This document shows positions 1,546 through 36,244 of a stretch of 44,727 nt of DNA, piece after piece. The notes below the pieces were generated by a model, which was not told the DNA's origin, ran no database searches, and saw only the letters and a program-made list of their open reading frames with translations. The position numbers and the translations under genes were made by a program. Source of the stretch: Pilasporangium apinafurcum (lineage: Eukaryota > Oomycota > Peronosporomycetes > Pythiales > Pythiaceae); assembly GCA_001600495.1 (NCBI GenBank), contig BCKE01000112.1, positions 1 through 44,727 on the forward strand. The letters are read 5' to 3'. Position 1 is the stretch's first letter; every line of letters starts with the position of its first letter.

Positions 1546-1561
1546 GCAGATTGGAAAATGA
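1546..1561 (-). promoter_or_regulatory. Initiator/FPR-like start site of Fanzor gene
   Basis: On the minus strand TCATTTTCCAATCTGC lies directly before the ATG at 1544. It fits the oomycete initiator plus flanking promoter region, TCAYTYYNCAWTTTNYY, at most positions. An inverted CCAAT box (TGATTGG on the gene strand) lies about 75 bases upstream at 1618-1624. Confidence 0.5.
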
Positions 1562-1639
1562 GAAAGAACGAGATGGTTTATGCTGAACATATCCAATTGT
1601 CCATTCATTTTTCTAAGCCAATCAAGTGAAAGATAACAC

Positions 1640-1845
1640 GATGTTCACGTGACGATGCAAAAAGTTGCAGCTGTGTAAACCACATCAATCTTCAATTTTT
1701 GCGCAATTGACAGCACATCTGGGTAACGTAATTCTTTGTTTACTGTTACTTTGTTATCTTTATCAAACCTATCAATGCTATAATTTCTAATAATAGTTAA
1801 AATATCAAAAATATATCAAGTAAAAAAGGTGACATTCTCGTTGCC
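1640..1845 (-). repeat. Dispersed ~200-base repeat, copy R1
   Basis: Read on the minus strand, this sequence contains CAGTAAACAAAGAATTACGTTA, then TTGATGTGGTTTACACA and a CTGCAACTTTTT block, and ends near a TGATTGG box. Related copies lie at about 7930-8100, 15605-15703, 29240-29330 and 30722-30775. It fills the gap between the Fanzor gene and the 350-residue protein gene. It may be a non-autonomous transposable element or a promoter copied with genes. Confidence 0.65.
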
Positions 1846-1895
1846 GGATGTCATAAGTATACCGTTCCAGGTTCTTAAAGTTCTCACTTGAAAAC

Positions 1896-2948
1896 ATGTT
1901 CAAATTCTTAGCAAAGAAATCCATTGAGGAGCGTATTCATGTCGTCAAAGCTGAAAAGCTTTATGCAAAATACGAACCATATAATGTTCTTTTAGCATTT
2001 CATGATGGATATCATTTCATGATTGATACGATTGAGGATGCCATATTGGTTGCTCATTTGTTCAAGGATTGTTTTGGCGACATTATTCTGGATCTTGACA
2101 GATCTTCTAACAATGGAGCATTTATGACAATCATGGATTGTTTGCATGATTACGAAGATGACGTATTGGGGGAGGATGTCGACATCTGGCTGCTAACCCA
2201 TGCGTTCAAGCAATTGGGAATCAAGTATGCCAACGAATGTGATCTGGATGTACTTCGACGTATGTATTGTTCTGGAGATGAAGAAGAAATCCAAAAGAAT
2301 ACCATGACTGCTTTCGTCTGCGTCGATAAACCAAAGATGAAAACCGTTGTATACCCTGATCAACTAGAAGATTACAAAACAACCGGAAAAGTTACTGATA
2401 ACAATATCGGTTCTGTCTTCAGATCGATCACAGATGTTGACGAACGCATTCAATTGCTCAAGACTGTTGATTATGACTTTTACATGGGATTGTATCCTAA
2501 AGCCTCTCTGGATTGGTTCATGGATATCAAGAGTTTCAAGCATGCGATGAAGTTTGCCAAGGTTTTCATGGAGCGATGTGGTGACATTGTTCTATGTCGT
2601 ATATCATCGTATGGGGATAAGAAATTTTTGACTGTAATGGATATCGCTGAATGGAAACTTAAATACACCGATGAGGGAACTATTATTGGCCTTTGGTTGA
2701 TCGTTTATGCATTTAATCGCCTTGGGTTCAAACGGGCGAGGGATTGCGACTATCAAACACTTCTACGAATGTACAACGATGTCGATTGTTTTCGTGAAGT
2801 TAGTAATGAAATTGTTTCATACAACTATCCGAAGATGAAAGTCGATCGTGAGTGGCTTAAACGCGAACTTATCGAGTTCCTATTGCAGCCAAGTATCGTT
2901 CAGAAATGGCTGGATGCTGGAAATGAGTTGGAAGAATATCTTCAATAG
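1896..2948 (+). CDS. Unknown protein with an internal domain duplication
   Basis: I do not recognise this 350-residue protein. It holds two copies of one domain. The first, around residues 60-125, has the pattern FKDCFGDIILDLD...WLLTHAFKQLGIKYANECDLDVLRRMY. The second, around 222-292, has FMERCGDIVLCRISS...WLIVYAFNRLGFKRARDCDYQTLLRMY. The shared skeleton is a GDI strand, a tryptophan-led helix, and a C-D-x-L-RMY ending. No signal peptide or membrane segment is visible. The ATG follows CTCACTTGAAAAC, a weak initiator-like match. It stands alone between the dispersed repeat and a convergent ankyrin gene. The length and the absence of breaks suggest that it is expressed. Confidence 0.75.
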   Translation: MFKFLAKKSIEERIHVVKAEKLYAKYEPYNVLLAFHDGYHFMIDTIEDAILVAHLFKDCFGDIILDLDRSSNNGAFMTIMDCLHDYEDDVLGEDVDIWLLTHAFKQLGIKYANECDLDVLRRMYCSGDEEEIQKNTMTAFVCVDKPKMKTVVYPDQLEDYKTTGKVTDNNIGSVFRSITDVDERIQLLKTVDYDFYMGLYPKASLDWFMDIKSFKHAMKFAKVFMERCGDIVLCRISSYGDKKFLTVMDIAEWKLKYTDEGTIIGLWLIVYAFNRLGFKRARDCDYQTLLRMYNDVDCFREVSNEIVSYNYPKMKVDREWLKRELIEFLLQPSIVQKWLDAGNELEEYLQ

Positions 2949-3083
2949 TTGGAAGTTTTCATCGAAGTAAACATTTGATTATTGTGTTTATTTCGTGCCT
3001 GTCATATTTCATTCATGCAAGCATTGCTGTTTTTATTCATAAATGTAGCGTAATCCAACATCTACATGTCCATTTGATAATTT

Positions 3084-3611: not shown

Positions 3612-3729
3612 GATGTTTTCGCGTGCAAGTTTTCGAATGAAGCTCCCTGTCCTCCACCCCACAATAAAAAATGTATAAAACAATGCACTGAATGAAAAAG
3701 CATCACAGTTGTACATTTTTTGTAACAGT

Positions 3730-4341: not shown

Positions 4342-4449
4342 TATTATCTTACAATCTTTGGCATCTACCAAGAATTCATTAGACGACAATTGTCTATCCT
4401 CTATCTTTCTCTTTCAAAAGCAAAAAATGAAAAAAAAAATATTGGGTGT

Positions 4450-6528
4450 TTATCGTTTATCGCTAAATGATACAGTATGTCTGGGTTTTGAATTTGCCAA
4501 TTTCTCTGAACCCATCATGCTAAGCAATGAGGCCGCCATTTCGTTCTTCTTTGTGTTCCCCATATACGCATGGTTAGTAGTTATTTGCTCACTACTATCC
4601 GATTCCGTCTCGCTGCACTTACCGCTTTCGTCAATAATATCTTCAGCTTTATCCTCAATATCTTCAATAGATTCATTATCTACGTTGATGGCATCCATAT
4701 CTTCATCATTATCGTCATCATCATCAACAATCATCATATCGTTATTGTTGCCATCATTGCCGTATTTTGTGATACGATGATCGGTAATTGGCTGCTCAAT
4801 CCAATGAACGGTGGGTTCCGCATTTCCGTTGATTTTATAAACATGATCAAAATTATTTGGATCATGGGGTTCTTCAACAAATTTATTCTTGAAAGGATCA
4901 AAGTACATACAACGAGTATGCTTGAACTGATTTGGATTCCATTCCTTGAATAAATGACGTCTTGGAAAATAAGCTTTTGGAACTTTTGATTCATCAATCG
5001 GCTTCATCAATTGTGTCTGATAGTACTCCCATTCATCCCTTACATCCTTGACCAAAGCATCGTTAATCCCATGCCGAAGTTTAAATTTTTCAGAAAATAA
5101 ATGTGTAATTTCATCTGGAATATGTTCTTCAAAATTTGAATAAGTGGCTGGAGGAAACAACAAATCATAGTGTTCCTTGTAGAATCGATGAGTAGCCGGA
5201 TTGAAGATAAAATAAAATCGACTCGGATCACGCGCAGCACGAATAGCCATGTCGAGAAATAAATCTTCGCGAACTGGAAACCATGATACTTGATTGTCAG
5301 GCATGCGTTGAAATACTGGATCATGTTCAATAAATGATGGAACAGCTCCATAATATATCAACTTTTCAATTGCGTCCTTGATTTTCTTCGCCAAGTTGGA
5401 AAGCTTTATACGACGAGCATCTCGTGCAATCTTGTATGCTTCAACAAAATTATGATCGATGGGGTTATTGCATTTTGGCAATTCAATCCAAAATTCTCTT
5501 TCCCATCGAGCCATAGCCATTTCAACAACATGCTTGTTGGTCAATAGCCACAATTTTTTAAAAGTCTTTTCCTTGAACGCATCGGCTCTCAGAATACGGA
5601 ATGGAAAAGCCTTTTGGACTAACGCATCCCATGGACGTGCTAACAATAGACGCGCCAGTTGTTTCACCGTAACACAATATGACCCATATTGAAGTCGCAT
5701 GGGAGCATTTTTGGTTTTTTTGTTGATGTTCCCGACTTCATCATACCGAACGTTCTCTTGAAGATCTTCAAGTTCCCGTAATACATCTTTCTTACTCAAA
5801 TTCAAATAATTGAAACTACTTGATCGTTGTGGAAGAGTTGACAAAACACTTTTCTTTCTCTTGAATCCAACAGATTTTTTTGGATCAATTGGCTTTTCAC
5901 TTAGTTCTGCAATTGGCTTTCCACTTGGTTCTGCAATTGGCTTTTCACTTGGTTTTACAATTATCGTTGGATTTGGTTCTGGGTTCGGCTTTTCGTTGGG
6001 TTGAAATAATAATTCTTTTGGACAATCTACTTCATTCGTACCACCGATATTCACAAATCGTATATCCCCCAATATTTCCTTCGAGACCTTGGTTCCTTGG
6101 ATATACGCAACTAGCATGTTGCCGATTAATTTGCCAAATAAATTCACGTCGTCCGATTGTTGCTTGTCCATTTCAATGTTGACACTCGCTACGCGAAGCA
6201 CTTGGTTGGCATATTCTCCGAATCCACCACCAAGATCAGCGGCAATATGCGAAAGATCACGTACGCTACGTAGTATCAAACCTGGATTCGTATTTGTGGT
6301 TTCTTTTGATTCCTGTTGGGATTTCATTCGTGCTAATACTTCGCCAAATTGGATAAAAAAATCAATTTGTCTTGCTCCTTCATTATCACCCTCGCCCCCG
6401 TTATCGACATTACTGTCAACACTGTCAACACTGTCAACACTGTTATCCTGATTGTCGATAGCGCTAGATGTGTATTCGTCGTCACCGTACGTTTTCGTTC
6501 TCTTGTGTGTTTGCTTGATACGTGCCAT
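4450..6528 (-). CDS. Unknown 692-residue acidic-tailed protein
   Basis: I do not recognise the family. The start at 6528 is the first ATG in frame and is preceded by TCATTTGCGAATTCGCC, which fits an initiator-like leader. The protein begins MARIKQTHKRTKT, which resembles the histone H3 tail (ARTKQT), followed by a DSVDSVDS acidic stretch. A proline/glutamate/lysine repeat region (PSEKPIAEPSGKPIAELSEKP) lies around residues 200-235. The middle (about 280-600) is a folded-looking region rich in aromatic residues. The C-terminus has a very acidic segment (DDDDDNDEDMD). The layout of basic head, repeat linker and acid tail suggests a chromatin- or nucleic-acid-associated protein, but that is inference. 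Confidence 0.7.
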   Translation of the reverse strand: MARIKQTHKRTKTYGDDEYTSSAIDNQDNSVDSVDSVDSNVDNGGEGDNEGARQIDFFIQFGEVLARMKSQQESKETTNTNPGLILRSVRDLSHIAADLGGGFGEYANQVLRVASVNIEMDKQQSDDVNLFGKLIGNMLVAYIQGTKVSKEILGDIRFVNIGGTNEVDCPKELLFQPNEKPNPEPNPTIIVKPSEKPIAEPSGKPIAELSEKPIDPKKSVGFKRKKSVLSTLPQRSSSFNYLNLSKKDVLRELEDLQENVRYDEVGNINKKTKNAPMRLQYGSYCVTVKQLARLLLARPWDALVQKAFPFRILRADAFKEKTFKKLWLLTNKHVVEMAMARWEREFWIELPKCNNPIDHNFVEAYKIARDARRIKLSNLAKKIKDAIEKLIYYGAVPSFIEHDPVFQRMPDNQVSWFPVREDLFLDMAIRAARDPSRFYFIFNPATHRFYKEHYDLLFPPATYSNFEEHIPDEITHLFSEKFKLRHGINDALVKDVRDEWEYYQTQLMKPIDESKVPKAYFPRRHLFKEWNPNQFKHTRCMYFDPFKNKFVEEPHDPNNFDHVYKINGNAEPTVHWIEQPITDHRITKYGNDGNNNDMMIVDDDDDNDEDMDAINVDNESIEDIEDKAEDIIDESGKCSETESDSSEQITTNHAYMGNTKKNEMAASLLSMMGSEKLANSKPRHTVSFSDKR

Positions 6529-6911: not shown

Positions 6912-7836
6912 TTATTTGTAAGATACAATTTTAACGGCAAGAAGCAACGTAAATACATCGTCATCAATTGTGGTCTTGAATACCATCATATTCTCATGAT
7001 CTACAAAGATATTGATTTGGTCACTAAGTAATGCTGTTGCTAGACTTTGGATATATTCAATATGTACTGTTGTTGACAGGAATTCATTTTCTGCCAGCGA
7101 GGAGTTGATTTTAAATAAATCTGCTTTTGTAAAAATGTGATTTACATCAATTGTCTTTGAATTACTATCATAAGGAAATGCAAGTGGAACGCCAGCTCTG
7201 CGTTCAACTGTAAAATCCTTGCTAAATCTAGAAATGTCACCAAATCACCTTCTTAAAATATTTACTAGGAAGAGTAAACGAAAGTGGATACGTCTGATAA
7301 GGGATTGAACTGATTATATTATCATCCGCGGCCATAGACCTTTCCAATAATGAGATTCTATAATACTCCTTAACCTCTTGATCTTCGTCATTAAGAACAA
7401 TATACAACTCCTTCATGTAGGGAACTTGTTTGGCAATAAAATGAATACTGTCATAGCTTTTATCAACCTTTTGAATTATTTTCTCTAAATTTTTTTGATC
7501 AATAACCATGATAGTGTTATGCTTGCAAAAGTATTGTGTCAATTTCGCACTGTCAATGTGCAAATCAATAAAATTATGTTTGAGGTGCCCAGCTCCAGAA
7601 ATCCGAACTCCAGATAGACGAAACTCCATTTTCACATCTCGAGTATCCATAAGTTTGAAAAGAGTGAAAAATTTTTTAAAATTAATTGGTACATCATAAA
7701 CCAGTTCAAGCATATGATCNTCTACAANAGGATCNGCTACAATANCCTTGCGAGTAGCAGTCTGGGAACTCGGTTTCACAATTCTAGGTCTTCCGACACG
7801 GCGCTTAGTGGGTTTTGAATCCGTTTGAATATCCAT
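6912..7836 (-). pseudogene. PCNA-like sliding clamp, frameshifted
   Basis: The gene starts at the ATG at 7836 and stays open for 199 residues to a stop at 7237. The first part has a basic, AT-hook-like head (KRRVGRPRIVKP), then a clamp-like domain ending in PLSFTLPSKYFKKV. The downstream sequence in the next frame, from about 7236 to the TAA at 6912, continues the pattern: DISRFSKDFT, then a C-terminal strand pattern ending in a LLLAVKIV-like segment where PCNA usually has YYLAPKI. One extra base near 7236-7240 explains the break. PCNA is the processivity clamp of DNA polymerase and is common in giant viruses. Four ambiguous bases lie in the 5' part (7720-7745), so sequencing error is possible, though none lies at the shift. 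Confidence 0.6.
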
Positions 7837-8545
7837 GGCTGTTTTATGTTTCTATAATTTTCTTTCAAATCTGCTGACAAAAAAATATTTATTTCAAATG
7901 GTACTTTTTTTGTGTGTAAGTACACTCACGAAATTGAACTATTATCAGAAATTGTAACCTTGATAAGTTTAATAGATTTATAACAAAGCAACAGTAAACA
8001 AAGAACTACGTTATGGAGATGCGCTGCCAATTGAGCAAAAAATGGAAAGTTTGATGTATTTTACACAACTGCAAACTTTTGACATCACGTAAACATGATT
8101 GAACATATGGAAAAATGAACGCAATAACTGCGAGCGTGTTCTTAACCATCAATATGTAATCGCTCAACATGAATCAAATTTTTATTTTTGTTCTGAATTC
8201 TCTTTCCAAAATTCCTCATGGTGGTTGTGACGATTACTTGGTTTCCGAGACGATGATTGGACGAAAGTTGAATAGACGGATTATGATTGGCTGAAATACG
8301 AAGAACTTGAAGGACGTTGGTGGGCGGAGGTGGCAACTTGATGGCAAATTGAAAAGTGAATTACATGGAGGACTTAGTTCGCTACCAATACATCTAACCT
8401 CCCCTTCAATGCATATTTTCCTATTCTGATTACAATCATCTTTCTACTTTCTTCCTTTACACATGTATGATATGCAACTATGTATTTCTGACTATTTTCC
8501 CTCTTAATGTATTGAAATATCTTTAAGGTATGTACTGTCGTCTGA
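7837..8545. other. Non-coding region with dispersed repeat R2 and CCAAT boxes
   Basis: The PCNA-like promoter lies at the left (ACATAAAAC just upstream of the ATG). Repeat R2 occupies about 7930-8100. Two TGATTGG boxes occur at about 8255 and 8287. A pyrimidine-rich stretch follows, up to the broken RING gene. I find no supported gene here. Confidence 0.45.
7930..8100 (+). repeat. Dispersed ~200-base repeat, copy R2
   Basis: Contains AACTATTATCAGAAATTGTAA, CAGTAAACAAAGAACTACGTTATGG, TTTGATGTATTTTACACAACTGCAAACTTTT and an ACGTAAACATG block. It matches R1 (reverse) through most of its length and R4 over the AAACAAAGAACTACGTTAT part. It is not directly next to an intact gene start. Confidence 0.65.
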
Positions 8546-8605
8546 CCTCGAACGCAAGGTGAGGCACATGCCGACGCTACGCTTGCTCCTTGCGTGCGAG
8601 GTCAG
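8542..8605. repeat. Inverted repeat / hairpin
   Basis: CTGACCTCGAACGCAAGG at 8542-8559 pairs with CCTTGCGTGCGAGGTCAG at 8588-8605, with one mismatch; the loop is about 28 bases. It sits at the 5' end of the broken RING-type gene. It could be an inserted fold-back element or the tip of one. Confidence 0.6.
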
Positions 8606-9181
8606 GCATGTGTTACACAATGCGATGGCTGTAAATCCAATAGTGCGATCCTAAAACTCGATGGTTGCGGTCATCGCTTCCATTCACGATGTGTGTACAC
8701 ATGACCAATTTCTAAATGCGAAATCTGCTCGGCACCGGTGGCAGTTGTTAAAATCTTCCGCGAATTTCGTGACCAACCCAACACCATTGCGCGCAGGGGG
8801 AAGTGGAGTGATGAAGAAAACCAGTATGCTGATATAATGATGAAACAATTCAAATTAGGCGCGCTGCCTCTTGTTGACGGCCACCACTTGCGTGTATTCA
8901 TGGCCAGCATACTCCAGTGCGATCCGTTACGTATCACAAAGAAATATGTGGATGACGAGATTGGTAAGCAGAATTTCTTTTATTACGGGTGTCATCGAAA
9001 CTATGATTATGACCGGCACATCATGCTACAAAAGTTGATATCAAAGCTACGAAATCATTTCTATTGGCGTATTGAACGAGGAAGCAGTTTTAGACACCCC
9101 ACAAGCATCCAGGAATTGAAGGCAGCTGAGACGGACTATTGGATCCGCGAACTTTTCAAATTTGCCAAAAAGATTGATTAA
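8546..9181 (+). pseudogene. RING-type zinc finger plus SANT-like domain, broken
   Basis: In one frame the sequence encodes a RING-like cluster: CDGC, then CGHRFHSRC, then CEIC. An in-frame TGA at 8702-8704 lies between the last two pairs, at a position where a tryptophan would be ordinary. After it the frame runs open to 9181. The C-terminal part, WSDEENQYADIMMKQF then DGHHLRVFMASILQCDPLRITKKY, resembles a domain I know from many stramenopile proteins, with a W-S-x-E-E start and a CDPxRIxKKY core. The frame is also closed upstream by a TGA at 8543, beside the hairpin, so no start codon is visible. RING proteins are usually E3 ubiquitin ligases. This copy looks inactive unless the stop is spliced out. 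Confidence 0.55.
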
Positions 9182-10277: not shown

Positions 10278-10357
10278 TGATTGGTCATAAATTATCTAAT
10301 CAAATTGTAAATATTTACGCAAAAATTATCAAATTAACATCAAGCATAAAAGATATA
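10278..10357 (+). promoter_or_regulatory. CCAAT and TATA-like promoter of the phosphatase gene
   Basis: TGATTGG at 10278-10284 lies 87 bases before the ATG at 10371, and CATAAAAGATATA at 10345-10357 lies close to it. The sequence ATCAAGCATAAAA recurs just upstream of the ORF at 11552, and TATAAAAGATATA upstream of the dUTPase. This suggests a second, TATA-type promoter class beside the initiator-type one. Confidence 0.5.
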
Positions 10358-10370: not shown

Positions 10371-10865
10371 ATGAACGTCGTTTCGTCGAATTCCAAGCTG
10401 TTGCCACATGAGCGATGCAATCCACTGAGTGAGGATGGTCGTTTGTTATTGGGTGCGCGTCCGACAACAGATACTTTACCAAAGCTGTTGGCATATGGAG
10501 TGGACCTGTTCGTCAATCTAGAGAACAAAGAAGAAGGAATGTGGTATCATGCGCATTTGCCTGCTGACGTGAAAGTGCTTACGCTACCAACTCAAAGCGG
10601 TCGTGCGCCAACCATTCGTACAGCTGCTGTTGGTGTATTACGTTTGCAACAACATTACAGTGATGGTGGTATCGCGTACATTCATTGTAGCGGTGGCCAT
10701 GGGCGCGCAGGTACGCTTGGTGCGCTACTGTTGGGACGTATGCACGGTTTGAGTGCAGTGGAAGCTATCAATGAGATTGAACGTTGGCGTGATCTACGAC
10801 CTGATACATCTCGCAACTTTATTCCAACGCCGGAGACTGATGCGCAGGTGCGGTTTCTTGTATGA
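10371..10865 (+). CDS. Dual-specificity-type protein phosphatase
   Basis: 164 residues with the cysteine phosphatase signature HCSGGHGRAGT: nucleophile Cys106, five residues, then Arg112. The general-acid region upstream is not obvious. The domain begins LLLGARPTTDTLPKLLAYGVDLFVNL, as in dual-specificity phosphatases, and the helix after the loop (LSAVEAINEIERWRDLRPD) is well kept. The family removes phosphate from Tyr/Ser/Thr or RNA ends. The reading frame closes at 10865 immediately where a NADAR domain opens in the next frame, and VRFL is followed by YDNWESK there. I infer that this was once one fused protein, with a one-base frameshift at about 10857-10864. The alternative is two overlapping genes. 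Confidence 0.85.
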   Translation: MNVVSSNSKLLPHERCNPLSEDGRLLLGARPTTDTLPKLLAYGVDLFVNLENKEEGMWYHAHLPADVKVLTLPTQSGRAPTIRTAAVGVLRLQQHYSDGGIAYIHCSGGHGRAGTLGALLLGRMHGLSAVEAINEIERWRDLRPDTSRNFIPTPETDAQVRFLV

Positions 10866-11486
10866 TAATTGGGAGTCAAAGAGGGAGAAATTGTGCCTAG
10901 TAGAGCTGATAAAACATGGATTGCCAGAGTCAAGAAAGAATGACAAATCCACTGGCGCTCCAATATTATTTTATACTAATGGGATTTCGCCGGAGTTCTC
11001 CAACTATTTTCAATTGTCGCCACTTATGATTTTCAACGGAGCGCAATTCGCTACCTCTGAGCATGCTTTCCAGAGTGCCAAGTTCATCTATCCAGGAGCA
11101 TCTGCTGCATCGTTAGAGTATGGTGGACTCATTCGCAATGCATCGACGCCTAACAAAGCACGAATATTGGCACTACAAAAGACTAGTGGTGGATATCCAT
11201 GGCGAGTAGCGCTAAACGTGCATATTGAAGCGGTTTTGCAACAAGGAGTCACTCTGAGACCAGATTGGGATAACGTTCGAGACGAATTGATGTATCAAGT
11301 ATACTGGCCAAGTTTCAGCAGAACGAACACTGCCGACAAACGTTGCTGGAAACAGGGGAACGTCAGCTCGTTGAACATACACCACGCGATGCGTATTGGG
11401 GCGATGGTGGGAATGGCACGGGTCAAAACAAGCTTTGAAAGCTTCTCATGCAAGTTAGAGAAACCATTAAAGCAGGTGCTAATTGA
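10864..11486 (+). pseudogene. NADAR (YbiA-like) domain, decayed
   Basis: The NADAR family acts on NAD-derived or ADP-ribose N-glycosides. The pattern here is clear: FSNYFQLSPLMIFNGAQFATSEHAFQSAKF, then IRNASTPNKARIL, then RPDWDNVRDELMYQV. Around 11305 the pattern jumps to another frame (11307 on) and continues with KFQQN, ETGERQLVEH and YWGDG blocks. This frame has a TGA at 11436-11438 in a place where the family has glycine, and ends at a TGA at 11484-11486. The original first frame runs on to 11535 with unrelated residues. With the break from the phosphatase at 10865, that makes three lesions. Phosphatase plus NADAR would fit control of ADP-ribose-linked or phosphorylated substrates, but this copy should be inactive. 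Confidence 0.7.
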
Positions 11487-11551
11487 AAAAAAACTACCAT
11501 TTGTAGTCTTTATTTCTTTTTCATATCAAGCATAAAAAATTACTACATCAA

Positions 11552-21566: not shown

Positions 21567-21630
21567 TGATTGGTTAAAAACTTGTATTTCTCTTTATAAA
21601 CAATTTCTTGTCATTTTCAAAAATTCGAAC
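21567..21630 (+). promoter_or_regulatory. CCAAT box, TATA and initiator of nuclease-like gene 2
   Basis: TGATTGG at 21567-21573, TTTATAAAC near 21595, and TCATTTTCAAAAATTCGAAC at 21611-21630 lie directly before ATG 21641. The block is a near copy of the one upstream of gene 1. Confidence 0.6.
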
Positions 21631-24533: not shown

Positions 24534-24572
24534 CGTTCTTTTTATTCAAATGAAGAAATGTCTTTTGGTTGG

Positions 24573-24694: not shown

Positions 24695-24810
24695 TGATTG
24701 GTTGAAAAACATATGAAAACTGAATGCACAACAGCAAGTTGTTTTATTCAACCAATCATGTAAGAGTATTCTAAACAAATCATTTTCTCTCATTCATTCT
24801 TCAATTCGCT
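24695..24810 (+). promoter_or_regulatory. Promoter of W-LP repeat gene 1
   Basis: TGATTGG at 24695-24701 is followed by ACATATGAAAACTGAATGCA, also found before repeat gene 2 (29341-29360). TCATTCTTCAATTCGCT at 24794-24810 closely fits the oomycete initiator plus FPR. Confidence 0.6.
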
Positions 24811-27697: not shown

Positions 27698-28069
27698 CTA
27701 AGCATCATTTTCTTCATCTTCCAAATATTCATATTCTTTGTAGCAAGATAGACTCACATCACTGTACGTGTGCATGCATAGATATATCTTGTTTTTTTCT
27801 GGTAACTCCACGCCGTAACGCTTCTTGGCGTGCGCCTTGAATTCCTTCAATAGTTGATCATACTCCGCGTACACTTCTTCTCTTTTGTACATGGCATCGG
27901 ACAGACTGATGGCAACGCCATATCGTATACCACTTGCGCAACAGCGAATTACTCCTTTGCAGGCAAGAGTCAAGGATTCACTAAACTTGTCATTATCGAT
28001 GTCAATATATTTATTGTCACTTGGGTCTTTCACTCCATAGATGATGACTGGGTCATAAACACCATACAT
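27698..28069 (-). CDS. Unknown 123-residue protein
   Basis: The preferred start is ATG 28069 (MYGVYDPVIIYG). A near-perfect initiator plus FPR, TCACTTTCCATTTTGCT, lies 26 bases upstream of it. The frame also stays open to an ATG at 28210, which would overlap a promoter module that repeats elsewhere, so I regard that as non-coding. The residues GVIRCCASGIRYGVAIS and KEFKAHAKKRYGVELPEKNKIYLCMHTYSDV do not recall a family. The acidic end is EYEYLEDEEND. It ends close to the metalloprotease gene and divergently faces Crinkler B. Confidence 0.65.
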   Translation of the reverse strand: MYGVYDPVIIYGVKDPSDNKYIDIDNDKFSESLTLACKGVIRCCASGIRYGVAISLSDAMYKREEVYAEYDQLLKEFKAHAKKRYGVELPEKNKIYLCMHTYSDVSLSCYKEYEYLEDEENDA

Positions 28070-28094
28070 TTTTGCGAGTTTGACTTGAACGCTT

Positions 28095-28114
28095 GGAAGC
28101 AAAATGGAAAGTGA
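28095..28114 (-). promoter_or_regulatory. Oomycete-type initiator plus FPR
   Basis: On the minus strand TCACTTTCCATTTTGCT matches TCAYTYYNCAWTTTNYY at every position. It directs the gene starting at 28069. This is the best single match in the window. Confidence 0.65.
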
Positions 28115-28119
28115 ATGGT

Positions 28120-28253
28120 TTTTTTTATTGTCGTTGAATCTTTTTTTTGACTTTGCGATATATTGAAAAAGATATATAGTCAAGTGCAACAACAAGTAAT
28201 TGCTCATCATAGTTTTTACCTTTTTACCAAAGACATATGCGTAATTACGTATT
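28120..28253. promoter_or_regulatory. Divergent double promoter module
   Basis: Two copies of a module lie back to back. At 28172-28205, GTGCAACAACAAGTAATTGCTCAT points leftward to the 123-residue gene. At 28209-28253, TAGTTTTTACCTTTTTACCAAAG..GTAATTACG points right to Crinkler B. The same module lies upstream of Crinklers C and D (34636-34674 and 36206-36244). Confidence 0.6.
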
Positions 28254-28300
28254 TTGCAAAATTGAAAAGGGTCGACCAAAAAAATTTCTTCATTTGAACG

Positions 28301-29242
28301 ATGACGAAGAAGTTAGTTTGCATGCTAGTGGGGGTGGCGGGAAGTGTGTTTCCCGTGGACATTGATGAGAATGATACCGTCAGTGTCTTGAAGGAGGCAA
28401 TTAAGAAGGAGAAGTCCGACATTATCAAGTGCGATGCGCATGAACTGCAGTTGTATCTCGCTAAGAAAGGTGATACATGGTTGAATAGGACCGATGCAGA
28501 AGCTCTGACGATTAAAGAGCTCTCAAACTTCACGGAAATGGGTTCTTCGGCATATCTCAATAGTGAACTTGCTTCAAACGAAGAAGTGATCCACGTCTTG
28601 GTGGTTGTTCCGACGCGAAGGGAGATCAGAGAGAAAAATAGAAATACGTTCTCTCAATTCATGGAGAAACTTGTTGCCGCGGATGTCGAAGAATTCAAGT
28701 GGGAAGTGGAACTCACTGAAGAACAGCAACGAGAGAAGTATCGAAAGTACATAGAAGACAATATTGGAGATATCCTCACGAAGGCGAATCTATGTGTGTT
28801 TGATGTGGCGAATAACGAAGACCTCCTCACTGCTCAAGTTCCTGGTCATGATATCGAATTAGCCGGAACTACGGACCTACTGATATTGAGCTCGATTGTC
28901 AAAGAATTTCCATTTGAGGTGGACACATTACCCGATGCAAGAATGTTGATCGAAGTGAAAAAAGAAGTAGAAGGCCGTCATACTTATCAAGTCATTTCGG
29001 AATTGATGGCCTTGGATTTGCTTGTTCGACAACCAGTTGCAGGGCTGTTGACCAATTTGCAAAACTTTTGGAAGTTTTTTTGGATTGGCGAAAACCGCTC
29101 AATCAAAACAACGATTCTCAAGCGACCTACCCACGCTTTTAAAATGATCAAAAAATTACTTGAGGATTCATCAAATGATGGTGATGATGAAACTCTTCCA
29201 TATGTACAAGAAGGAGCGAAGAAACAAAAATTGGAGAAGTAA
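28301..29242 (+). CDS. Crinkler B (header plus restriction-enzyme-like nuclease)
   Basis: 313 residues. The header (VCMLVGVAGSVFPVDIDENDTVSVLKEAIKKEK) carries LQLYLAK near residue 52 and HVLVVVP near 101, the two Crinkler hallmarks. There is no P-loop. The C-terminal domain has Asp192 in GTTDLLI and Glu218-Val-Lys220 in RMLIEVKKEV, followed by a QVISELMALDLL helix: a PD-(D/E)xK nuclease core with complete acidic and basic residues. This small type of Crinkler is thought to cut DNA in the nucleus. The leader TTCTTCATTTGAACGATG is shared with Crinklers C and D. It lies 170 bases before repeat gene 2. Confidence 0.85.
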   Translation: MTKKLVCMLVGVAGSVFPVDIDENDTVSVLKEAIKKEKSDIIKCDAHELQLYLAKKGDTWLNRTDAEALTIKELSNFTEMGSSAYLNSELASNEEVIHVLVVVPTRREIREKNRNTFSQFMEKLVAADVEEFKWEVELTEEQQREKYRKYIEDNIGDILTKANLCVFDVANNEDLLTAQVPGHDIELAGTTDLLILSSIVKEFPFEVDTLPDARMLIEVKKEVEGRHTYQVISELMALDLLVRQPVAGLLTNLQNFWKFFWIGENRSIKTTILKRPTHAFKMIKKLLEDSSNDGDDETLPYVQEGAKKQKLEK

Positions 29243-29407: not shown

Positions 29408-30706
29408 ATGGCAGCGAAAACCGAATGTAAGCAGAAATGCTGGTCGGATGAAGCTGTACCAGATCTCACACTACCACGAACTAAGAAAATCAAGGAAGAA
29501 CGTTTTAAAATCAAGCTGAGTGTATTATGGACCGATCCCAGATGCCAGAATGTGCTTTTATTTCTCGACTGGAATGAGCTCTGCGCCAATCCAGACTCGT
29601 GGATGTTGCCGGTCTTTGAAGCAAATCCAGATAAACTTCATTGGGATTTGATTTGCTTTCTTCCGAAAAGGTGGATGTTGCCACTGCTGCAAACAAATCT
29701 AGACAAGCTTGATTGGAAATGCCTCTGCTACAACTCTAAAGAATGGATATTACCATTACTACAAGCAAACATAGACAAGCTCTATTGGTGGAATCTCTGC
29801 TACAACTCTAAAGAATGGATATTACCATTATTACAAGCAAATCTAGACAAGCTTCATTGGAAAAACCTTTGCAACAAACCTCAGGAATGGATATTACCAT
29901 TTTTGACGGAGCACTTGGACAAGCTCGATTGGAAACAACTTTGTGTTTGTCCTCATGAGTGGTTACTACAGTTTTTTACAAAGCATCCAGATAAGCTTGA
30001 TTGGAAACAGCTTTGTATTGGTCCTCAAGAGTGGTTGTTGCCATTCTTTGAAGCAAATGTAAACAGACTCGATTGGGGACAACTTTGTTACGCTTCTCAA
30101 AAATGGATGCTACCACTTTTTGAAGCACATCCAGACAAGCTCTGTTGGAGAGGACTCTCTACTAGGCCTGAAAAATGGTTAATGCCATTCTTACAAGCCA
30201 ATATGGATATGCTCGATTGGAGACAACTCCACTTCATCCCTCAAGAATGTGTATTACCACTTTTTGAAGCCAACCCAAACAAGGTCAATTGGAAAGAACT
30301 CTGCAACGAACCGAAAGAATGGATGTTGCCACTTTTCGAAGCGCATCCAAAGAAGCTTATTTGGAGAAAACTCTGCACCGAATCTCCAGAATGGATGTTA
30401 CCATTATTACAAGCAAATCTAGACAAGCTCGATTGGACATATCTCTGCGTGATCCCTCGCGAATGGATGCAATCTTTTTTGACAGAACACCACGATAAGA
30501 TTGATTGGAAACAACTTTGCTATCGTCCTAAAGAATGGATGTTACCACTTTTTCAAGCGCACCCAGATAAGCTTGATTGGGAAGTACTTTGTATCACATC
30601 TGAAGAATGGATGCTACCCCTTTTTCAAGCGAATCAAGATAAACTGGACTGGAATCGTCTTCATAAACATCCTCGAGAGTGGATGGCGCCATTGTTCGAG
30701 AATTGA
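29408..30706 (+). CDS. Protein of 24-residue W-LP repeats, 2
   Basis: 432 residues from ATG 29408; the open frame starts further left but the promoter and the match to gene 1 favour this ATG (MAAKTECKQKC against MAPKDEQKRKR). After a short basic head with LPRTKKIKEERFKIKLSVLW, about fifteen units follow with the same 24-residue pattern as the longer protein: W-x-x-L-C, then W-M/I/L-L-P-L-F/L. The head segment DPRCQNV-x-x-F-L-DW-x-ELC is nearly the same in both. Unlike copy 1 it stops on a repeat without a divergent tail. It has the same likely role as a solenoid binding scaffold. R5 follows. Confidence 0.75.
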   Translation: MAAKTECKQKCWSDEAVPDLTLPRTKKIKEERFKIKLSVLWTDPRCQNVLLFLDWNELCANPDSWMLPVFEANPDKLHWDLICFLPKRWMLPLLQTNLDKLDWKCLCYNSKEWILPLLQANIDKLYWWNLCYNSKEWILPLLQANLDKLHWKNLCNKPQEWILPFLTEHLDKLDWKQLCVCPHEWLLQFFTKHPDKLDWKQLCIGPQEWLLPFFEANVNRLDWGQLCYASQKWMLPLFEAHPDKLCWRGLSTRPEKWLMPFLQANMDMLDWRQLHFIPQECVLPLFEANPNKVNWKELCNEPKEWMLPLFEAHPKKLIWRKLCTESPEWMLPLLQANLDKLDWTYLCVIPREWMQSFLTEHHDKIDWKQLCYRPKEWMLPLFQAHPDKLDWEVLCITSEEWMLPLFQANQDKLDWNRLHKHPREWMAPLFEN

Positions 30707-30721
30707 AGAGTACTCGCTAAT

Positions 30722-30775: not shown

Positions 30776-30808
30776 CTGAATGTATGTGTTTTCAAGCAAT
30801 CATCAGAT

Positions 30809-30843
30809 TAGTTTTTACTTTTTACTGTGTGTAATTACGTATT
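30809..30843 (+). promoter_or_regulatory. Promoter module upstream of the RNase H gene
   Basis: TAGTTTTTACTTTTTACTGTGTGTAATTACG matches the module at 28209. It lies about 140 bases before ATG 30983. A TTTATAAAA sequence near 30871 follows. Confidence 0.55.
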
Positions 30844-30982
30844 GAAGAATAGATGCTTGAGTATTTGGATGTTTATAAAAACCCCATTATGGAAATATCG
30901 AAGCGGGTTTTTTTGAAGAGAGGAGGGGGAGAAGAATAATCAGATCCCAAAACGAAACGGGCAAGAAGAAACGACAAGAAAC

Positions 30983-31504: not shown

Positions 31505-31660
31505 TAAAAAGATTGCGAGCAAAAAAGGAAAAAAGAGTAGCTTGTCGTACTTGGAAACTCAACTATCGTCTAGTCACACTACATGTCAAAACAATATACT
31601 CTCATTTTTTGATGGTAGATCATTGGCGAAATACAAAGTATATGAAATTGACTTTTGAAG

Positions 31661-31674
31661 TATAAAAGATATAC
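31661..31674 (+). promoter_or_regulatory. TATA box of the dUTPase gene
   Basis: TATAAAAGATATAC lies about 30-43 bases before ATG 31704. The same sequence, in nearly identical form, stands before the phosphatase gene at 10345. Confidence 0.6.
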
Positions 31675-31703
31675 AAAAAAAGTATTTTGGCAAGCTTTCA
31701 ACA

Positions 31704-32297
31704 ATGTTTTCATTTACTATTAATCCTACTCCTACTCTTGTTGTTGACGGAGAAGAAATTCATGGCATCAACATTCTTGATAAGCTTCATCAGCTGATGG
31801 AGACTTCCCCAGAAGCAAAGAAGTTGTTCTTAGATGTTGCTAGCATTTATCAGCGAACTCAATTGCCTCGTCTTGGCTTTCGTCTGGAAGATCCATCTGC
31901 TATTATGCCTACAAAGCGCATTACTGATGTTGGTTACGATCTTACTGTTGTTGCCATTCATTCACGCCCAACCCGATTGACGACAATGTACGAATCGTAT
32001 GTTTCTCTGAACATTCCGCTTGGGTATTGTGTTGAGTTAGTACCTCGTAGTAGTATTTCTAAAACTGGTTACATGCTTGCCAATAATGTCGGGATTATTG
32101 ATCCAGGATATACTGTTACAGTTAAGGTCCCGTTAATCAAAGTGGATCAATCTGCTCCTAATCTTGAATTGCCTGCTAAGGTATGTCAATTGCTTCTCAA
32201 GCCATATGTTGTTAGTGAACCATTTGATGCTACTGAAACAAGTAGTATTCAAACGCATCGTGGCGTTAACGGATTTGGCTCCACAGATTGCCTATGA
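31704..32297 (+). CDS. dut: dUTPase
   Basis: 197 residues; cleaves dUTP to dUMP and keeps uracil out of DNA. All five motifs are visible: I at 73-80 (ITDVGYDL), II at 114-118 (PRSSI), III at 130-141 (GIIDPGYTVTVK), IV at 159-166 (KVCQLLLK) and V at 186-195 (RGVNGFGSTD). The catalytic Asp of motif III (D133) and the motif V glycine-phenylalanine are present, so the enzyme should be active. A ~55-residue N-terminal extension precedes the core, which is longer than in typical dUTPases. Common in large DNA viruses. The stop overlaps the end of the convergent Crinkler C gene by 6 bases. Confidence 0.92.
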   Translation: MFSFTINPTPTLVVDGEEIHGINILDKLHQLMETSPEAKKLFLDVASIYQRTQLPRLGFRLEDPSAIMPTKRITDVGYDLTVVAIHSRPTRLTTMYESYVSLNIPLGYCVELVPRSSISKTGYMLANNVGIIDPGYTVTVKVPLIKVDQSAPNLELPAKVCQLLLKPYVVSEPFDATETSSIQTHRGVNGFGSTDCL

Positions 32298-34538
32298 AAA
32301 TATCCAATCTACTTTTTTTTCCAAAACGTTTTCCTCGATGCGCGTCCAATTGAAATTCTTTCGCAAAAATCTAAGGGTTTCTACATCCGCGATACTTCGA
32401 TCTTCTAACTCCACGAAAATGACCAGCTTCTTCGCTTCGTGCTTGTTTTCGATTCCTTTAATTTCTTCCAACCCAGTAGTTTCTTTAATTCGATAGAAAA
32501 AGGCATGTGCCACAAAGTCATCGAACGTATCTTCTTTAATGACGTACGAGTCTTGTAGCGAGTGGATAAAGACAAGATGGACTGTGGTTTGCTTTGGAAT
32601 TTGCTTGATGATCGTTTTCATGTCTTCAAGTCGCAACTTATCTTTGCAATTTCTGTATTCAACCGACAAGCTGTTATCTGAGATCAAGAAGTCAATCCGG
32701 GCGTCGTTCTTTGTTGTCTCGAGATTTCCCAAGTTCAATTCTTTGGGAAGGAAGTCTGGCCATTTTACATTTGGTGGAGAGAGAAACGGAATCCGCCAAC
32801 CACTCACTGGGAATGGAAATGCAATATAATCCTCTGGAGACTCTTTCATTCCCAATTCATACAATAATGCAGAAAAGAAAGCATCGAAACCGATCCCAGA
32901 GAAGCCACCTCTGTGACTTGCAAGAACGATAGAACCAGTGATCAGAGCTTCTAGTAGCTGATTGGTCTTTTCAGATCTGGAAATTTGGATCTTATATTCC
33001 ACGATAGACAAGGCTTGATAAAACGGCACTGGATCCTTATAACGATCCTTCAATGTACGAAATCCCTTCCCTCCCATCAACACAAGGTATAGAAGAATGT
33101 CTTCGTCCATTGTTGGAAATTCGCAATCGTTTTTCCAAATAATGCCATCCTTCGTAATTTTGTTATTCTCATTGATCTTTAGGTCGAATGGTTTCGTTTC
33201 AGTGAGCCGCGCATAGTGTTCATTGATGAGATTGCTTTTGCCATTATTTGCATAGTTCATATAGCTCGAACAAAGAAGAAGACAGACTTGGCCGGCAATA
33301 AACCATGGGAAACGGTTCTTCCAATATAAAAACACATCCGATATCTTGCCAATCATCTTGTCCATGTACTCCACAATATCTTCTTCGTTCATAGGATTTT
33401 CGGAAATGTATTCGAGAGCTTCCATTGCAAACAACGGTCTGCTGTTGAACACAATGCGCTTCAATTCTTCTGGGATGTGGCCAATTGATGGATCTTGAAA
33501 GCGCGGAAGTGACGGGAACACCACACACCATAGGGAAGAAGGCTCAATGCTGCCTCGCGAATATACATCTGTCGTACCGAGTTGTATCGCACTGTTATTC
33601 GTAGAACTTGCGATTACTGGCAAACCAAGCACAGAGAATACGTTCCGCATGAATCGAAGATATCTCACTTTGGAATAATTTGTTTCGTTGAGAAGTGGGA
33701 ATTCATCCAAGAAGAAAACACAGCGCTTTTGTCTTGATGCTAAAACTTCTTCGATATCTTTTTTTCGCTTTTTCTCATTAAAGCTTTCGGCTCCAGTCAG
33801 TAGTCCCCATATGAACCCATACGTGCGGAGCTCTGAATTACGAGCAATCTCATCCACTGCACTTTCGTCCATGAGACCATAGTCAAATTTAACACACATT
33901 TGAAAAACTATCGATCTGGAAGTAAACGGACGATACACACCCTGTGATGGCGTATCACCAAATCGTGCGCAAACAAGATAAAACACGTCTAGTTCTTCGC
34001 GAGCCATGAGATTGAATGCCATCTGCGTCTTCCCCATGCCTGACGAGTTATTTAATACGATAAATGGCGCTCTCTTGATCTTCGCAACAAGATTGACAAC
34101 TTCGTCCGAATTCTTTAGCATCTTTGCCACTTCAAAATATGGTTTGAGGTATTCTTCATTTCCATATTTCTTGTTCAATCTTAGAGAAAATGACCACTGA
34201 TCCGCTCTACCACTAGAAAATATTGGAAAAACCACAAGAACATGAACCTCGTCTTCGTTTGGAGTGAAGTTTTTTCCAAAATATGCAAGATTATTGAGCC
34301 GAAGTAAAGGATTCATTTGCTTGAGGTCTTGATGAATATATTCAGATTTTGTTTCTTCCACGTAATCTCTCGTCACCCAATAGCCCTTCTTCCACTTGGC
34401 GAGATACAGCTTTATACCCCATATACCTTCGTGCTCTTTTTTTATCGCATTGGTCAGATCTTCGACAGTATCGTTCTCGTCAATATCAATAGAAAGCGGG
34501 TCCTTTCCTGTTCGCTCCAACACGTAAAACAGCTTCAT
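32292..34538 (-). CDS. Crinkler C (header, P-loop NTPase)
   Basis: 748 residues, the longest Crinkler here. The header has IKLYLAKWKKGYW near residue 37 and HVLVVFP near 100. The P-loop reads SSGMGKTQ near residue 168 in PFIVLNNSSGMGKTQMAFNL. A Walker B-like CVFFLDEFP follows near 270. The final domain has DARIDFLISDNSLSVEYRNCKDK then HLVFIHSLQDSYV, a pattern like a degenerate nuclease fold at the end. The ATG is 6 bases past a GAACGATA, whereas Crinklers B and D have GAACGATG there. So the ancestral ATG may have been lost and the present one used. It shares the leader TCATTCTTCAATTTGAA (34547-34563). Confidence 0.85.
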   Translation of the reverse strand: MKLFYVLERTGKDPLSIDIDENDTVEDLTNAIKKEHEGIWGIKLYLAKWKKGYWVTRDYVEETKSEYIHQDLKQMNPLLRLNNLAYFGKNFTPNEDEVHVLVVFPIFSSGRADQWSFSLRLNKKYGNEEYLKPYFEVAKMLKNSDEVVNLVAKIKRAPFIVLNNSSGMGKTQMAFNLMAREELDVFYLVCARFGDTPSQGVYRPFTSRSIVFQMCVKFDYGLMDESAVDEIARNSELRTYGFIWGLLTGAESFNEKKRKKDIEEVLASRQKRCVFFLDEFPLLNETNYSKVRYLRFMRNVFSVLGLPVIASSTNNSAIQLGTTDVYSRGSIEPSSLWCVVFPSLPRFQDPSIGHIPEELKRIVFNSRPLFAMEALEYISENPMNEEDIVEYMDKMIGKISDVFLYWKNRFPWFIAGQVCLLLCSSYMNYANNGKSNLINEHYARLTETKPFDLKINENNKITKDGIIWKNDCEFPTMDEDILLYLVLMGGKGFRTLKDRYKDPVPFYQALSIVEYKIQISRSEKTNQLLEALITGSIVLASHRGGFSGIGFDAFFSALLYELGMKESPEDYIAFPFPVSGWRIPFLSPPNVKWPDFLPKELNLGNLETTKNDARIDFLISDNSLSVEYRNCKDKLRLEDMKTIIKQIPKQTTVHLVFIHSLQDSYVIKEDTFDDFVAHAFFYRIKETTGLEEIKGIENKHEAKKLVIFVELEDRSIADVETLRFLRKNFNWTRIEENVLEKKVDWIFS

Positions 34539-34546
34539 CGCTATCG

Positions 34547-34563
34547 TTCAAATTGAAGAATGA
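34547..34563 (-). promoter_or_regulatory. Initiator plus FPR of Crinkler C
   Basis: On the minus strand TCATTCTTCAATTTGAA fits TCAYTYYNCAWTTTNYY except the final two bases. It lies 8 bases before the ATG at 34538. Confidence 0.6.
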
Positions 34564-34635
34564 GCTTTGGCTTGTTGTCGAATCTTTTTAAGGTTGAAAA
34601 TACGCTAAAAGAATGTATAGTTAAGTGCAACAAAT

Positions 34636-34674
34636 GTAATTACGCATTATTCTTTGGTAAAAAGTAAAAACTAT
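34636..34674 (-). promoter_or_regulatory. Promoter module of Crinkler C
   Basis: Plus-strand GTAATTACGCATTATTCTTTGGTAAAAAGTAAAAACTAT, read in reverse for the gene. The module is the same as at 28209 (TTTGGTAAAAA..TAAAAACTAT), in the same orientation relative to the gene. Confidence 0.6.
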
Positions 34675-34736
34675 CAATCTAGAAGTAATTATGCATTTTT
34701 ACCAAAATATGGAATTGAACTTCGTCTTTATCGCGT

Positions 34737-36164
34737 TCATGGCAGTGCCAATTGCGCGTGAGCTTCCAACAAATACTTTCGAAGTGCAGAAAGAGCATCA
34801 CCACCTCTGTCTGGTTCAGAGATGAACTCGAGAAGCTTCTGCTTATTCCCTTTATATAAGCGTTTGTAGATCGTATCCCGCACATATTCAGACGCAAACA
34901 TAAATCGATCACCATGGAAATCACCCCGTATACGCTTGTGAAGCAAATGATACGACATTATACTGTAATCGTGATCAAATCTGCTACAAGCGTTCTTCAA
35001 AGTGTCCAAATCAAAAACACCATCAATCGCTGATTCGAGAAAACTCTGTTGGCACTTAGCTTGCGCATACGGCAACACATAACGAGCGATGCCACCCCAT
35101 CGACGAAAACGGTCTTCAACAATGTCCTTAGGGATGCGCTGATAGAGAAGCTCATGACACTTCATAATTTCTTCCTTTGACCACACAGGCATATAACAAA
35201 ATGTGCAACTTGTCTTGTTGAACTGATACCAAATTTCACGACTTGGATAGGTCAACAGGATCGTCTTAGCTTCAACATAAACAGGCTTGAACTCATCAAC
35301 AATGTAGTATGTTGTCTCTTTTTTGAGAATTCTGACAAAATCGTCTTGTTTTCCTCGAATAACCACATCGCGAGAGAAGAGAATGCGTTCCCTGGACATT
35401 CCTCTCTCGTACACCACAGTATTACCTAAACGCGCAAGGTGATGCAAGATGAAATATCCGAAAAAAGTCTTGCCAATTCCAGGATTTCCCAAGATCACGA
35501 GATGCGGTGTTCTTTTTGTATGAATGATCGTCCATGCTACTTCAAGCAGATGTGGGTAACAATGGCGAATATATATCGAAGAACCAAGAGTTTCATCTCC
35601 AAAAAGAAACACATCTTGTGGTAGAGTAATCATGGCATCGGGCTCAATTTTAGTGGTGTCCTCGATAAGTGCTTTCCAAAACGCCACGAGATCTGGTGGA
35701 TTTACGGTCATATACGTCGTCACTGGCATATCCACATCATCCACAGTGATTCTTGTCAACAGTTTAGTTATCATAGTCACAATAGGCCAGTTGCGATCCC
35801 GAATGCGCTTGCGGTCACTAACAAGCAAATCATCTGGGATAACCACCAGGACGTGAAGGACCTCGTCGTCATCATTTAAACCCGTGAACACCTTGTGAAT
35901 TTTTTCCGTTTCTAGCAGCTCTGTGCTCAGCAGATCTTGAATATGTGATTTCTCCCCATTTCTCAATGCTTTCATTTCTTCAGATGCACTAGGAAGCCAT
36001 ACGTCATCAGTCTTGGCGAGATACAACTTCAATTCACTCGCATCACACTTGATCTTGTCCTTCTCCTTGATCGCTTTCTTCAAATCGTCGATGGTATCGT
36101 TCTCATCAATATCCACGGGGAACGCGCTTCCTGCCACACCCACTAGCTTGCAAAACAGCTTCAT
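34737..36164 (-). CDS. Crinkler D (header, P-loop NTPase, shortened)
   Basis: 475 residues. The header MKLFCKLVGVAGSAFPVDIDENDT is nearly the same as Crinkler B, with LKLYLAK at about residue 46 and HVLVVIP near 104. The P-loop is GNPGIGKT at about residue 225-232 in LVILGNPGIGKTFFGYF. CYMPVWSKEEIMKCHELL and RWGGIARYVLP follow, as in Crinkler A. After a LRKYLLEAHAQLALP segment the frame closes, and no nuclease-like end follows; Crinkler A continues for another 180 or so residues here. It may be truncated or a natural short form. The module at 36206-36244 and CTCATTTCTTTATTTGAACG lie upstream. Confidence 0.82.
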   Translation of the reverse strand: MKLFCKLVGVAGSAFPVDIDENDTIDDLKKAIKEKDKIKCDASELKLYLAKTDDVWLPSASEEMKALRNGEKSHIQDLLSTELLETEKIHKVFTGLNDDDEVLHVLVVIPDDLLVSDRKRIRDRNWPIVTMITKLLTRITVDDVDMPVTTYMTVNPPDLVAFWKALIEDTTKIEPDAMITLPQDVFLFGDETLGSSIYIRHCYPHLLEVAWTIIHTKRTPHLVILGNPGIGKTFFGYFILHHLARLGNTVVYERGMSRERILFSRDVVIRGKQDDFVRILKKETTYYIVDEFKPVYVEAKTILLTYPSREIWYQFNKTSCTFCYMPVWSKEEIMKCHELLYQRIPKDIVEDRFRRWGGIARYVLPYAQAKCQQSFLESAIDGVFDLDTLKNACSRFDHDYSIMSYHLLHKRIRGDFHGDRFMFASEYVRDTIYKRLYKGNKQKLLEFISEPDRGGDALSALRKYLLEAHAQLALP

Positions 36165-36166
36165 CG

Positions 36167-36244
36167 TTCAAATAAAGAAATGAGCTGTGTACAGGTGCAA
36201 CAAAGGTAATGACTCATTATTCTTTATTAAAAAGTAAAAACTAT
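36167..36244 (-). promoter_or_regulatory. Leader and promoter module of Crinkler D
   Basis: Minus-strand CTCATTTCTTTATTTGAAC at 36167-36185 is initiator-like. Plus-strand GTAATGACTCATTATTCTTTATTAAAAAGTAAAAACTAT at 36206-36244 is the conserved module. This copy has TGACTCA, an AP-1/GCN4-type site, where the others have TTACG. Confidence 0.6.

Follow-up and report, generated by a model that had tools for sequence, protein, structure and literature searches.

Probable initiator-type core promoters of the oomycete kind at Crinkler, WLP and Fanzor-like genes on a contig of Pilasporangium apinafurcum

Whose promoters are used by the genes on contig BCKE01000112.1 of the oomycete Pilasporangium apinafurcum? 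The window analysed here is this whole contig (C112 among the contig labels C14, C59 and so on of the genome; fetched genome loci are labelled L001, L020 and so on) with its 44,727 bases, belonging to a genome of 36.5 Mb in 136 contigs. It holds four Pfam Crinklers, two divergent Crinkler-like genes and WLP repeat genes, together with two ankyrin genes, a Fanzor-like gene, a long interspersed nuclear element, a MULE-like transposon and two PhyH-type genes, and on the same contig are PCNA-, dUTPase- and RNase H-type genes plus the uncharacterised gene 39340-40134. An earlier note on this DNA described seven leaders resembling the initiator (INR) plus flanking promoter region (FPR) of Phytophthora, placed them before virus-type genes and Crinklers alike, and proposed either that a giant-virus fragment had taken on host promoters after entry or that the genes came from an oomycete-adapted virus. 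We regard it as probable that the leaders are the host's own INR+FPR core promoter of the effector class, spread mainly by duplication of host-resident families. Judging from the sequence, its carriers appear to be mainly Crinklers, plus WLP repeat genes, a Fanzor pair and two genes without a known family.

The leaders were scored in two ways. The consensus of the earlier note is a 17-mer with 15 informative positions, and the second scoring used the initiator YCAYTYY and the flank MWTTTNC as given in PMC10031896 with the 2-nt spacer of PMC3599244, amounting to 13 positions. The upstream search reached 60 nt for the window, the Crinklers and the WLP genes and 130 nt for elicitins. At all seven coordinates an initiator-like leader is present in sense orientation and close to an ATG, with YCAYTYY followed after 2 nt by the MWTTTNC flank; the sites score 11-15 of 15 and 11-13 of 13, and their leaders are common to their paralogues. 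The match at every position that had been noted at 28095-28114 is indeed there, at 28098-28114.

1545-1561, minus strand: INR+FPR leader of the Fanzor-like gene; 14/15; abuts the ATG; identical in a 95%-identical copy on C59
20624-20640, plus strand: leader of Crinkler-like gene A; 12/15, 12/13
21611-21627, plus strand: leader of Crinkler-like gene B; 11/15, 11/13
24794-24810, plus strand: INR+FPR leader of a WLP gene; 14/15; 3 nt before the ATG; identical in the C14 copy
28098-28114, minus strand: perfect INR+FPR leader; 15/15; 28 nt before ATG 28069; 15/15 in the C14 copy
34547-34563, minus strand: INR+FPR leader of Crinkler 32292-34538; 13/15, 12/13; same in the C14 copy
36167-36183, minus strand: leader TCATTTCTTTATTTGAA of Crinkler type; 11/15, 11/13; as locus L018, 1 mismatch to the family element

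Scoring all leaders against the consensus with a shuffled control, as the earlier note had proposed, revealed an enrichment at gene starts. Within 60 nt of the ATG, 4/25 gene starts reach at least 13/15 compared with 20/1782 other ATGs (p 2.5e-4), and 3/25 versus 0/1782 reach at least 14/15 (p 2.3e-6). Two of the 25 starts, 28069 and 29408, were picked for their homologue support once the motif was known; if the first ATG is always used, the excess is weaker and persists (at least 12/15 in 5/25, p 0.0099; at least 14/15 in 2/25, p 1.8e-4). Among 400 sets of shuffled leaders the observed count was reached by none at 13/15 or better and by one at 12/15 or better. With 300 column-permuted consensuses the largest count was 3 versus 4 observed at the 13/15 level and 8 versus 7 observed at the 12/15 level, and antisense or upstream-shifted windows gave 1-3/25 and 0-1/25 at the levels of 12/15 and 13/15, respectively. 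The 12/15 level alone is weak and only the stricter levels are informative; sites 20624, 21611 and 36167 are individually unexceptional, at background level, under this consensus. Allowing up to 3 mismatches to it gives 121 matches with 88 expected, a modest excess.

The published consensus separates gene starts more clearly: 12/25, including all seven claimed sites, score at least 11/13 compared with 77/1788 other ATGs (p 2.9e-10), 5/25 versus 4/1788 score at least 12/13 (p 4e-8), and 1/25 scores 13/13. Two of the 12, the MULE site and the best-scoring site of Crinkler 28301, are probably chance placements. Excluding Crinkler-type genes leaves 6/19 starts at 11/13 or better (p 1.3e-4); the gene-class labels in this scoring were assigned with the motif already known, and the overall count is independent of them.

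Is the element at home in this genome? The genome itself has oomycete content, with 50 elicitin-domain matches and 63 Crinkler header matches, both families giving 0 in 14 control genomes. The exact consensus occurs 327 times and its reversed pattern once. We do not take all 327 matches as promoters, as many have a TCACTTT form located in a dispersed repeat that carries an exact INR+FPR, which accounts for many of the exact genome matches. Among the first 44 exact matches listed 21 start with TCACTTT. Five matches were sampled from the top of the listing, and three of them (L001, L004, L005) lie in the repeat, as does the related L003. The window contains a copy of it with a second perfect match, which the earlier note had not listed and which has no long open reading frame (ORF) just downstream; further copies are on C1 and C14.

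8226-8622, no strand assigned: dispersed repeat; exact INR+FPR at 8343-8359 on the minus strand; stretches about 91-93% identical in L001, L004 and L005

Of the 327 exact sites we sampled 40: one with TCAC and 39 with TCAT, the latter taken in the order of the listing but skipping the repeat site L003. For 29 of the 40 an ATG that opens a reading frame follows within 120 nt, and many of these frames look signal-peptide-like by eye. All 20 sampled elicitin genes, mostly the better-scoring ones among the 50 matches, reach at least 11/13, with 17 of them at 12/13 or better and 18/20 at 13/15 or better. At this last level stand 0/11 scored Ras genes (12 of 30 fetched loci were used, one being without an ATG). 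In this genome the element is thus used by effector and secreted genes, and the contrast between elicitins and Ras agrees with the description of INR+FPR as a mark of oomycete pathogenesis and secreted genes (PMC3599244, PMC3520976). Genome counts, elicitins and the window's own gene starts together support the view that these are core promoters of oomycete style.

The most numerous carriers are the Crinklers, of which the window holds the following genes and further leaders.

20669-21553, plus strand: divergent Crinkler-like gene A; 58% identical to gene B
21641-22606, plus strand: divergent Crinkler-like gene B; C-terminal part 140-318 matches frames beside Crinkler headers
22650-24533, minus strand: Crinkler gene; PF20147, E 1.1e-19
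24546-24561, minus strand: leader ACATTTCTTCATTTGA of Crinkler 22650-24533; 11/13; Crinkler family element
28283-28299, plus strand: leader AATTTCTTCATTTGAAC of Crinkler type; as locus L016, 1 mismatch to the family element; 10/13 by the published consensus
28301-29242, plus strand: Crinkler gene; PF20147, E 1e-22
32292-34538, minus strand: Crinkler gene; PF20147, E 5.5e-14
34737-36164, minus strand: Crinkler gene; PF20147, E 3.1e-22

Like known Crinkler (CRN) effectors these genes are clustered and duplicated, and the PF20147 N-terminal header establishes four loci as Crinklers, whereas the headers of 20669 and 21641 are divergent and undetected by Pfam, so that membership does not extend to them; the frames matching the C-terminal part of gene B adjoin Crinkler headers on C42, C128 and C13. 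We collected 41 Crinkler leaders, plus one locus (L029) without an ATG. In the scored set of 38, which includes three Crinklers of the window and excludes the weak starts L020 and L139, locus L029 and the window's 34538 row, 35 leaders reach at least 11/13 (35/40 if both weak starts are taken as misses).

Many of these leaders have a form of their own, CATTTCTTCATTTGARC, which distinguishes them from the oomycete INR+FPR as described. It has 17 exact matches in the genome and 0 reversed, and 17/17 lie 7-16 nt before a Crinkler header match; within 3 mismatches it is found in 28/41 Crinkler leaders compared with 9/3000 random 70-nt windows. Pairwise identity over 26 Crinklers is 0.87 for the 17-mer versus 0.33-0.41 across the 60 nt upstream, a contrast that is somewhat built in as the 26 were chosen for having CATTTCTTCATTTGARC within 4 mismatches. 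Other Crinklers carry the canonical element (L021 and L144 with 15/15, L145 with 14/15, L027, L142 and L147 with 13/15), some of them on large contigs. L006, L009, L013, L025 and L146 have degenerate versions of the Crinkler form, L020 and L139 neither form, and Crinkler 32292-34538 and its C14 copy share the intermediate leader TCATTCTTCAATTTGAAC. This pattern suggests that Crinkler header and core promoter duplicate as one unit, each header bringing along a start element that hardly varies; this would account for the shuffling of Crinkler tails without loss of expression. In many Crinklers (L006-L035) a stretch resembling GATTG(G/C/A)TCAACCAA also recurs about 20-45 nt upstream of the initiator, with part of it palindromic and part an inverted CCAAT box; GATTGG likewise lies upstream of Crinkler 24533, the two Crinkler-like genes, the DSP gene, the Fanzor gene and both WLP genes.

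The end of contig C14 matches window 24.3-36.2 kb inverted and in pieces, the main ones being 85-92% identical and the part at 29.3-31.5 kb matching in short parts only.

Which of the remaining carriers could be viral? The earlier note spoke of genes of viral type; what follows the claimed non-Crinkler sites is a Fanzor-like gene, a member of a repeat family that has expanded in the host, and a gene without known family.

306-1544, minus strand: short ORF of a Fanzor-like nuclease; open frame of 681 aa in the C59 copy
4450-6528, minus strand: 692-aa gene, function unassigned; two relatives found; paralogues on C50 and C102
6535-6551, minus strand: INR with weak FPR; 12/15, 11/13; 6 nt before ATG 6528; not listed by the earlier note
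24814-26907, plus strand: WLP repeat protein gene; multi-copy family, 85 genome matches
27698-28069, minus strand: 123-aa gene, function unassigned; paralogues on C14, C2 and C3
29388-29404, plus strand: degenerate leader of the second WLP gene; 12/15, 11/13; supported ATG 29408
29408-30706, plus strand: second WLP repeat gene; WLP family match

The 85 WLP matches are spread over nine contigs besides the window. A strong element 3 nt before the ATG is present in copies on C14, C28 and C102 and is weaker or lacking elsewhere; one C28 and one C102 paralogue, whose proteins are 46-72% identical piece by piece, have 15/15. WLP proteins resemble the short repeats of the metagenome protein P0045 (E 4e-14), a repeat type known from giant viruses. 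Around 8000 candidates were scored in each of the protein searches for WLP and 4450-6528, and the numbers of relatives are lower bounds. The 4450-6528 protein had no Pfam match, and its C50 paralogue (61% amino acid identity) keeps TCATTTG 6 nt before the ATG. The perfect site 28098-28114 lies inside the longest ORF (27698-28210), 28069 being a later in-frame ATG, and in the 98%-identical C14 copy both motif and ATG are kept. The Fanzor-like ORF, for which 103 genome matches were listed, is related to the solved Fanzor structure of Spizellomyces (phmmer E 1.4e-6 over 52 residues) and has a RuvC-type motif as read by eye. A second Fanzor-like piece, judged by eye and without a solved-structure match, lies at 40635-41117, near the opposite contig end from 306-1544.

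Concerning the layout, the initiator A lies 15-57 nt before the ATG in the 12 scoring window genes (median 22.5), at a median of 26 nt in Crinklers (range 17-34 plus one at 57) and at 15-29 nt in eight scoring WLP leaders, compared with a median of 58.5 nt in elicitins and 59 nt for the 29 host exact sites. The difference between Crinklers and elicitins (p 6e-10) is somewhat exaggerated by the unequal search depth, with most Crinkler distances being well inside 60 nt. For Phytophthora a median of 81 nt is given (PMC3520976).

The better candidates for virus-type genes are outside the element's carriers.

7237-7836, minus strand: PCNA-like gene, INR not found; PF00705; 8/13 at both ATGs tried
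31704-32297, plus strand: dUTPase gene, INR not found; PF00692; 9/13 and 8/13 at the two ATGs tried
39340-40134, minus strand: possible Nucleocytoviricota-type gene, INR not found; 43 homologues; weak mixed fold matches; 9/13

No TCAYTY was found within 60 nt of the first ATG of PCNA, dUTPase, RNase H, WLM, the DSP gene and 39340-40134, nor of both PhyH and both ankyrin genes, and the 14 genes of the non-carrier class do not outscore other ATGs (mean 8.9 versus 8.6 of 13, p 0.13). Since some first ATGs may be wrong, we also scored 26 later in-frame ATGs within 60 codons, and 7/26 reached at least 11/13, four of them in genes already counted (MULE, Crinkler 24533, 28069 and 29408). PCNA, dUTPase, WLM, the DSP gene of the DSP/NADAR pair and 39340-40134 had no good match at any in-frame start tried. 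The claim that virus-type genes and Crinklers share the element therefore stands for the Crinklers and is doubtful for the virus-type genes. As a simple sequence test, the element would tell foreign-looking genes within the host effector programme (WLP) from others outside it (PCNA, dUTPase, 39340-40134).

A viral origin of 39340-40134 is itself likely at best. Its 43 relatives are mostly without a named organism, one being from Phytophthora boehmeriae, and the predicted structure (pTM 0.36) has weak fold matches to phage proteins, to the asfa-like virus C129R homologue and, lower down, to mimivirus L6. Scans of viral contigs gave no relative of 39340-40134, WLP, P0045 or Crinkler, four of the five scans being sensitive to close relatives only. 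RNA polymerase and capsid genes were not identified in the window, and the profile Capsid_NCLDV PF04451 had 0 matches in the genome and also 0 in the control genomes, leaving this search without a positive control.

If the leaders are host promoters, the host transcription machinery would read them as ordinary INR+FPR core promoters with RNA polymerase II starting at the A of the initiator, which is bound by TAF1 and TAF2 (PMC3599244). The families of Crinkler-rich regions would duplicate together with their start regions and so bring the leaders into the window, with Crinkler element and protein header moving as one unit and the Crinkler-specific CATTTCTTCATTTGARC arising on the way. Several observations weigh against this reading. 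Conservation among duplicates may reflect shared descent rather than selection, and in Phytophthora the Crinklers are enriched in the CCAAT-only set and not in the INR+FPR set (PMC3520976). WLP leaders reach 11/13 or better in only 8/16 scored (18 starts were read besides the window's own, two lacking an in-frame ATG), all seven other scored Fanzor relatives are without the element (10 of the 103 matches were fetched, two had no ATG, and 1 of the 8 scored has it), and so are three distant relatives of the 28069 gene. Among the later in-frame ATGs there are three new matches, ankyrin 3611 (11/13), RNase H 31037 (11/13) and the second PhyH gene at 38498 (12/13), compared with one expected from a background of about 4% per ATG. 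It is possible that these are real leaders; the PhyH one is the best of the three, and plausible, because its tandem twin starts to align near 38498, which may be the true start of the second PhyH gene. The three matches make the split between carriers and virus-type genes less clean, and we do not hold to a clean one.

38472-38487, plus strand: possible leader GCATTTCTACTTTTGC of the second PhyH gene; 12/13, 10 nt before the later in-frame ATG 38498; 10/13 at the first ATG

If leaders rich in pyrimidines and in A and T matched by chance, this would suffice for the three background-level sites, for a permuted consensus reaching the observed count at 12/15 and for the modest excess at 3 mismatches, but the gene-start enrichment under the published consensus, the empty shuffled sets at 13/15 and the family conservation rule out chance alone, and we give it next to no credence. 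That a giant virus brought the genes and that these gained host core promoters after integration would fit the resemblance of WLP to P0045 and its repeat type, the initiator kept in the C50 paralogue of 4450-6528, the possible leader of the second PhyH gene and the one possible Nucleocytoviricota-type gene. We nevertheless consider it unlikely: viral descent is seen for none of the element's carriers, PCNA, dUTPase and 39340-40134 are without the element, and the capsid profile, for what that search can tell, had no match in the genome. That the genes arrived with oomycete INR+FPR promoters already in use, in a mobile element or a virus replicating in the nucleus, is more improbable still. The compact layout in the window compared with elicitins (with two of the 12 sites probably due to chance) and the exact sites in the dispersed repeat would suit such a vehicle, but the viral-contig scans, within their sensitivity, gave no relative, the canonical element occurs before some Crinklers that sit on large host contigs, and PCNA, dUTPase and 39340-40134 are not among its users. 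It is just as improbable that the families expanding in Crinkler clusters, virus-like repeat genes and a Fanzor nuclease among them, owe their compact promoter class, in which the initiator lies about 15-30 nt upstream of the ATG, to joint travel in a mobile element or a nuclear DNA virus adapted to oomycetes, which would have been the source of the promoter layout as well as of the Crinkler header unit. Both viral scenarios of the earlier note are superfluous for most sites; for WLP, 4450-6528 and perhaps the second PhyH gene they are possible.

A known insertion offers a comparison for the whole contig. As in the giant-virus insertion on contig 2.45 of Phytophthora parasitica (PMC8204020), virus-type, ankyrin and Crinkler genes and transposons are mixed in the window, and Crinklers are among the expressed genes of contig 2.45. 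Unlike the window, contig 2.45 holds capsid and RNA polymerase genes, and for its sole expressed viral polymerase gene the authors report no promoter-like sequence upstream.

The dUTPase gene has a conserved leader of another kind, TATAAAAGATATA, which is common to two C14 copies. The element lies at 31661-31673 before the dUTPase gene and, with one mismatch, at 10345-10357 before the DSP gene, and with up to 2 mismatches there are 8 such elements in the window versus 1.9 expected. Oomycete promoters are described as lacking canonical TATA boxes. A TATA-type element as a general signature of virus-type genes was rejected, as it fits the dUTPase and DSP genes only. The two PhyH-type dioxygenases (37233-38069 and 38372-39334) are tandem duplicates with 71% DNA identity and a zinc-finger-like part at the C-terminus. 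At 10371-11535 the DSP-type phosphatase ORF overlaps a second ORF that matches a riboflavin-intermediate N-glycosidase (NADAR-like), and the two are perhaps one two-domain gene in two frames.

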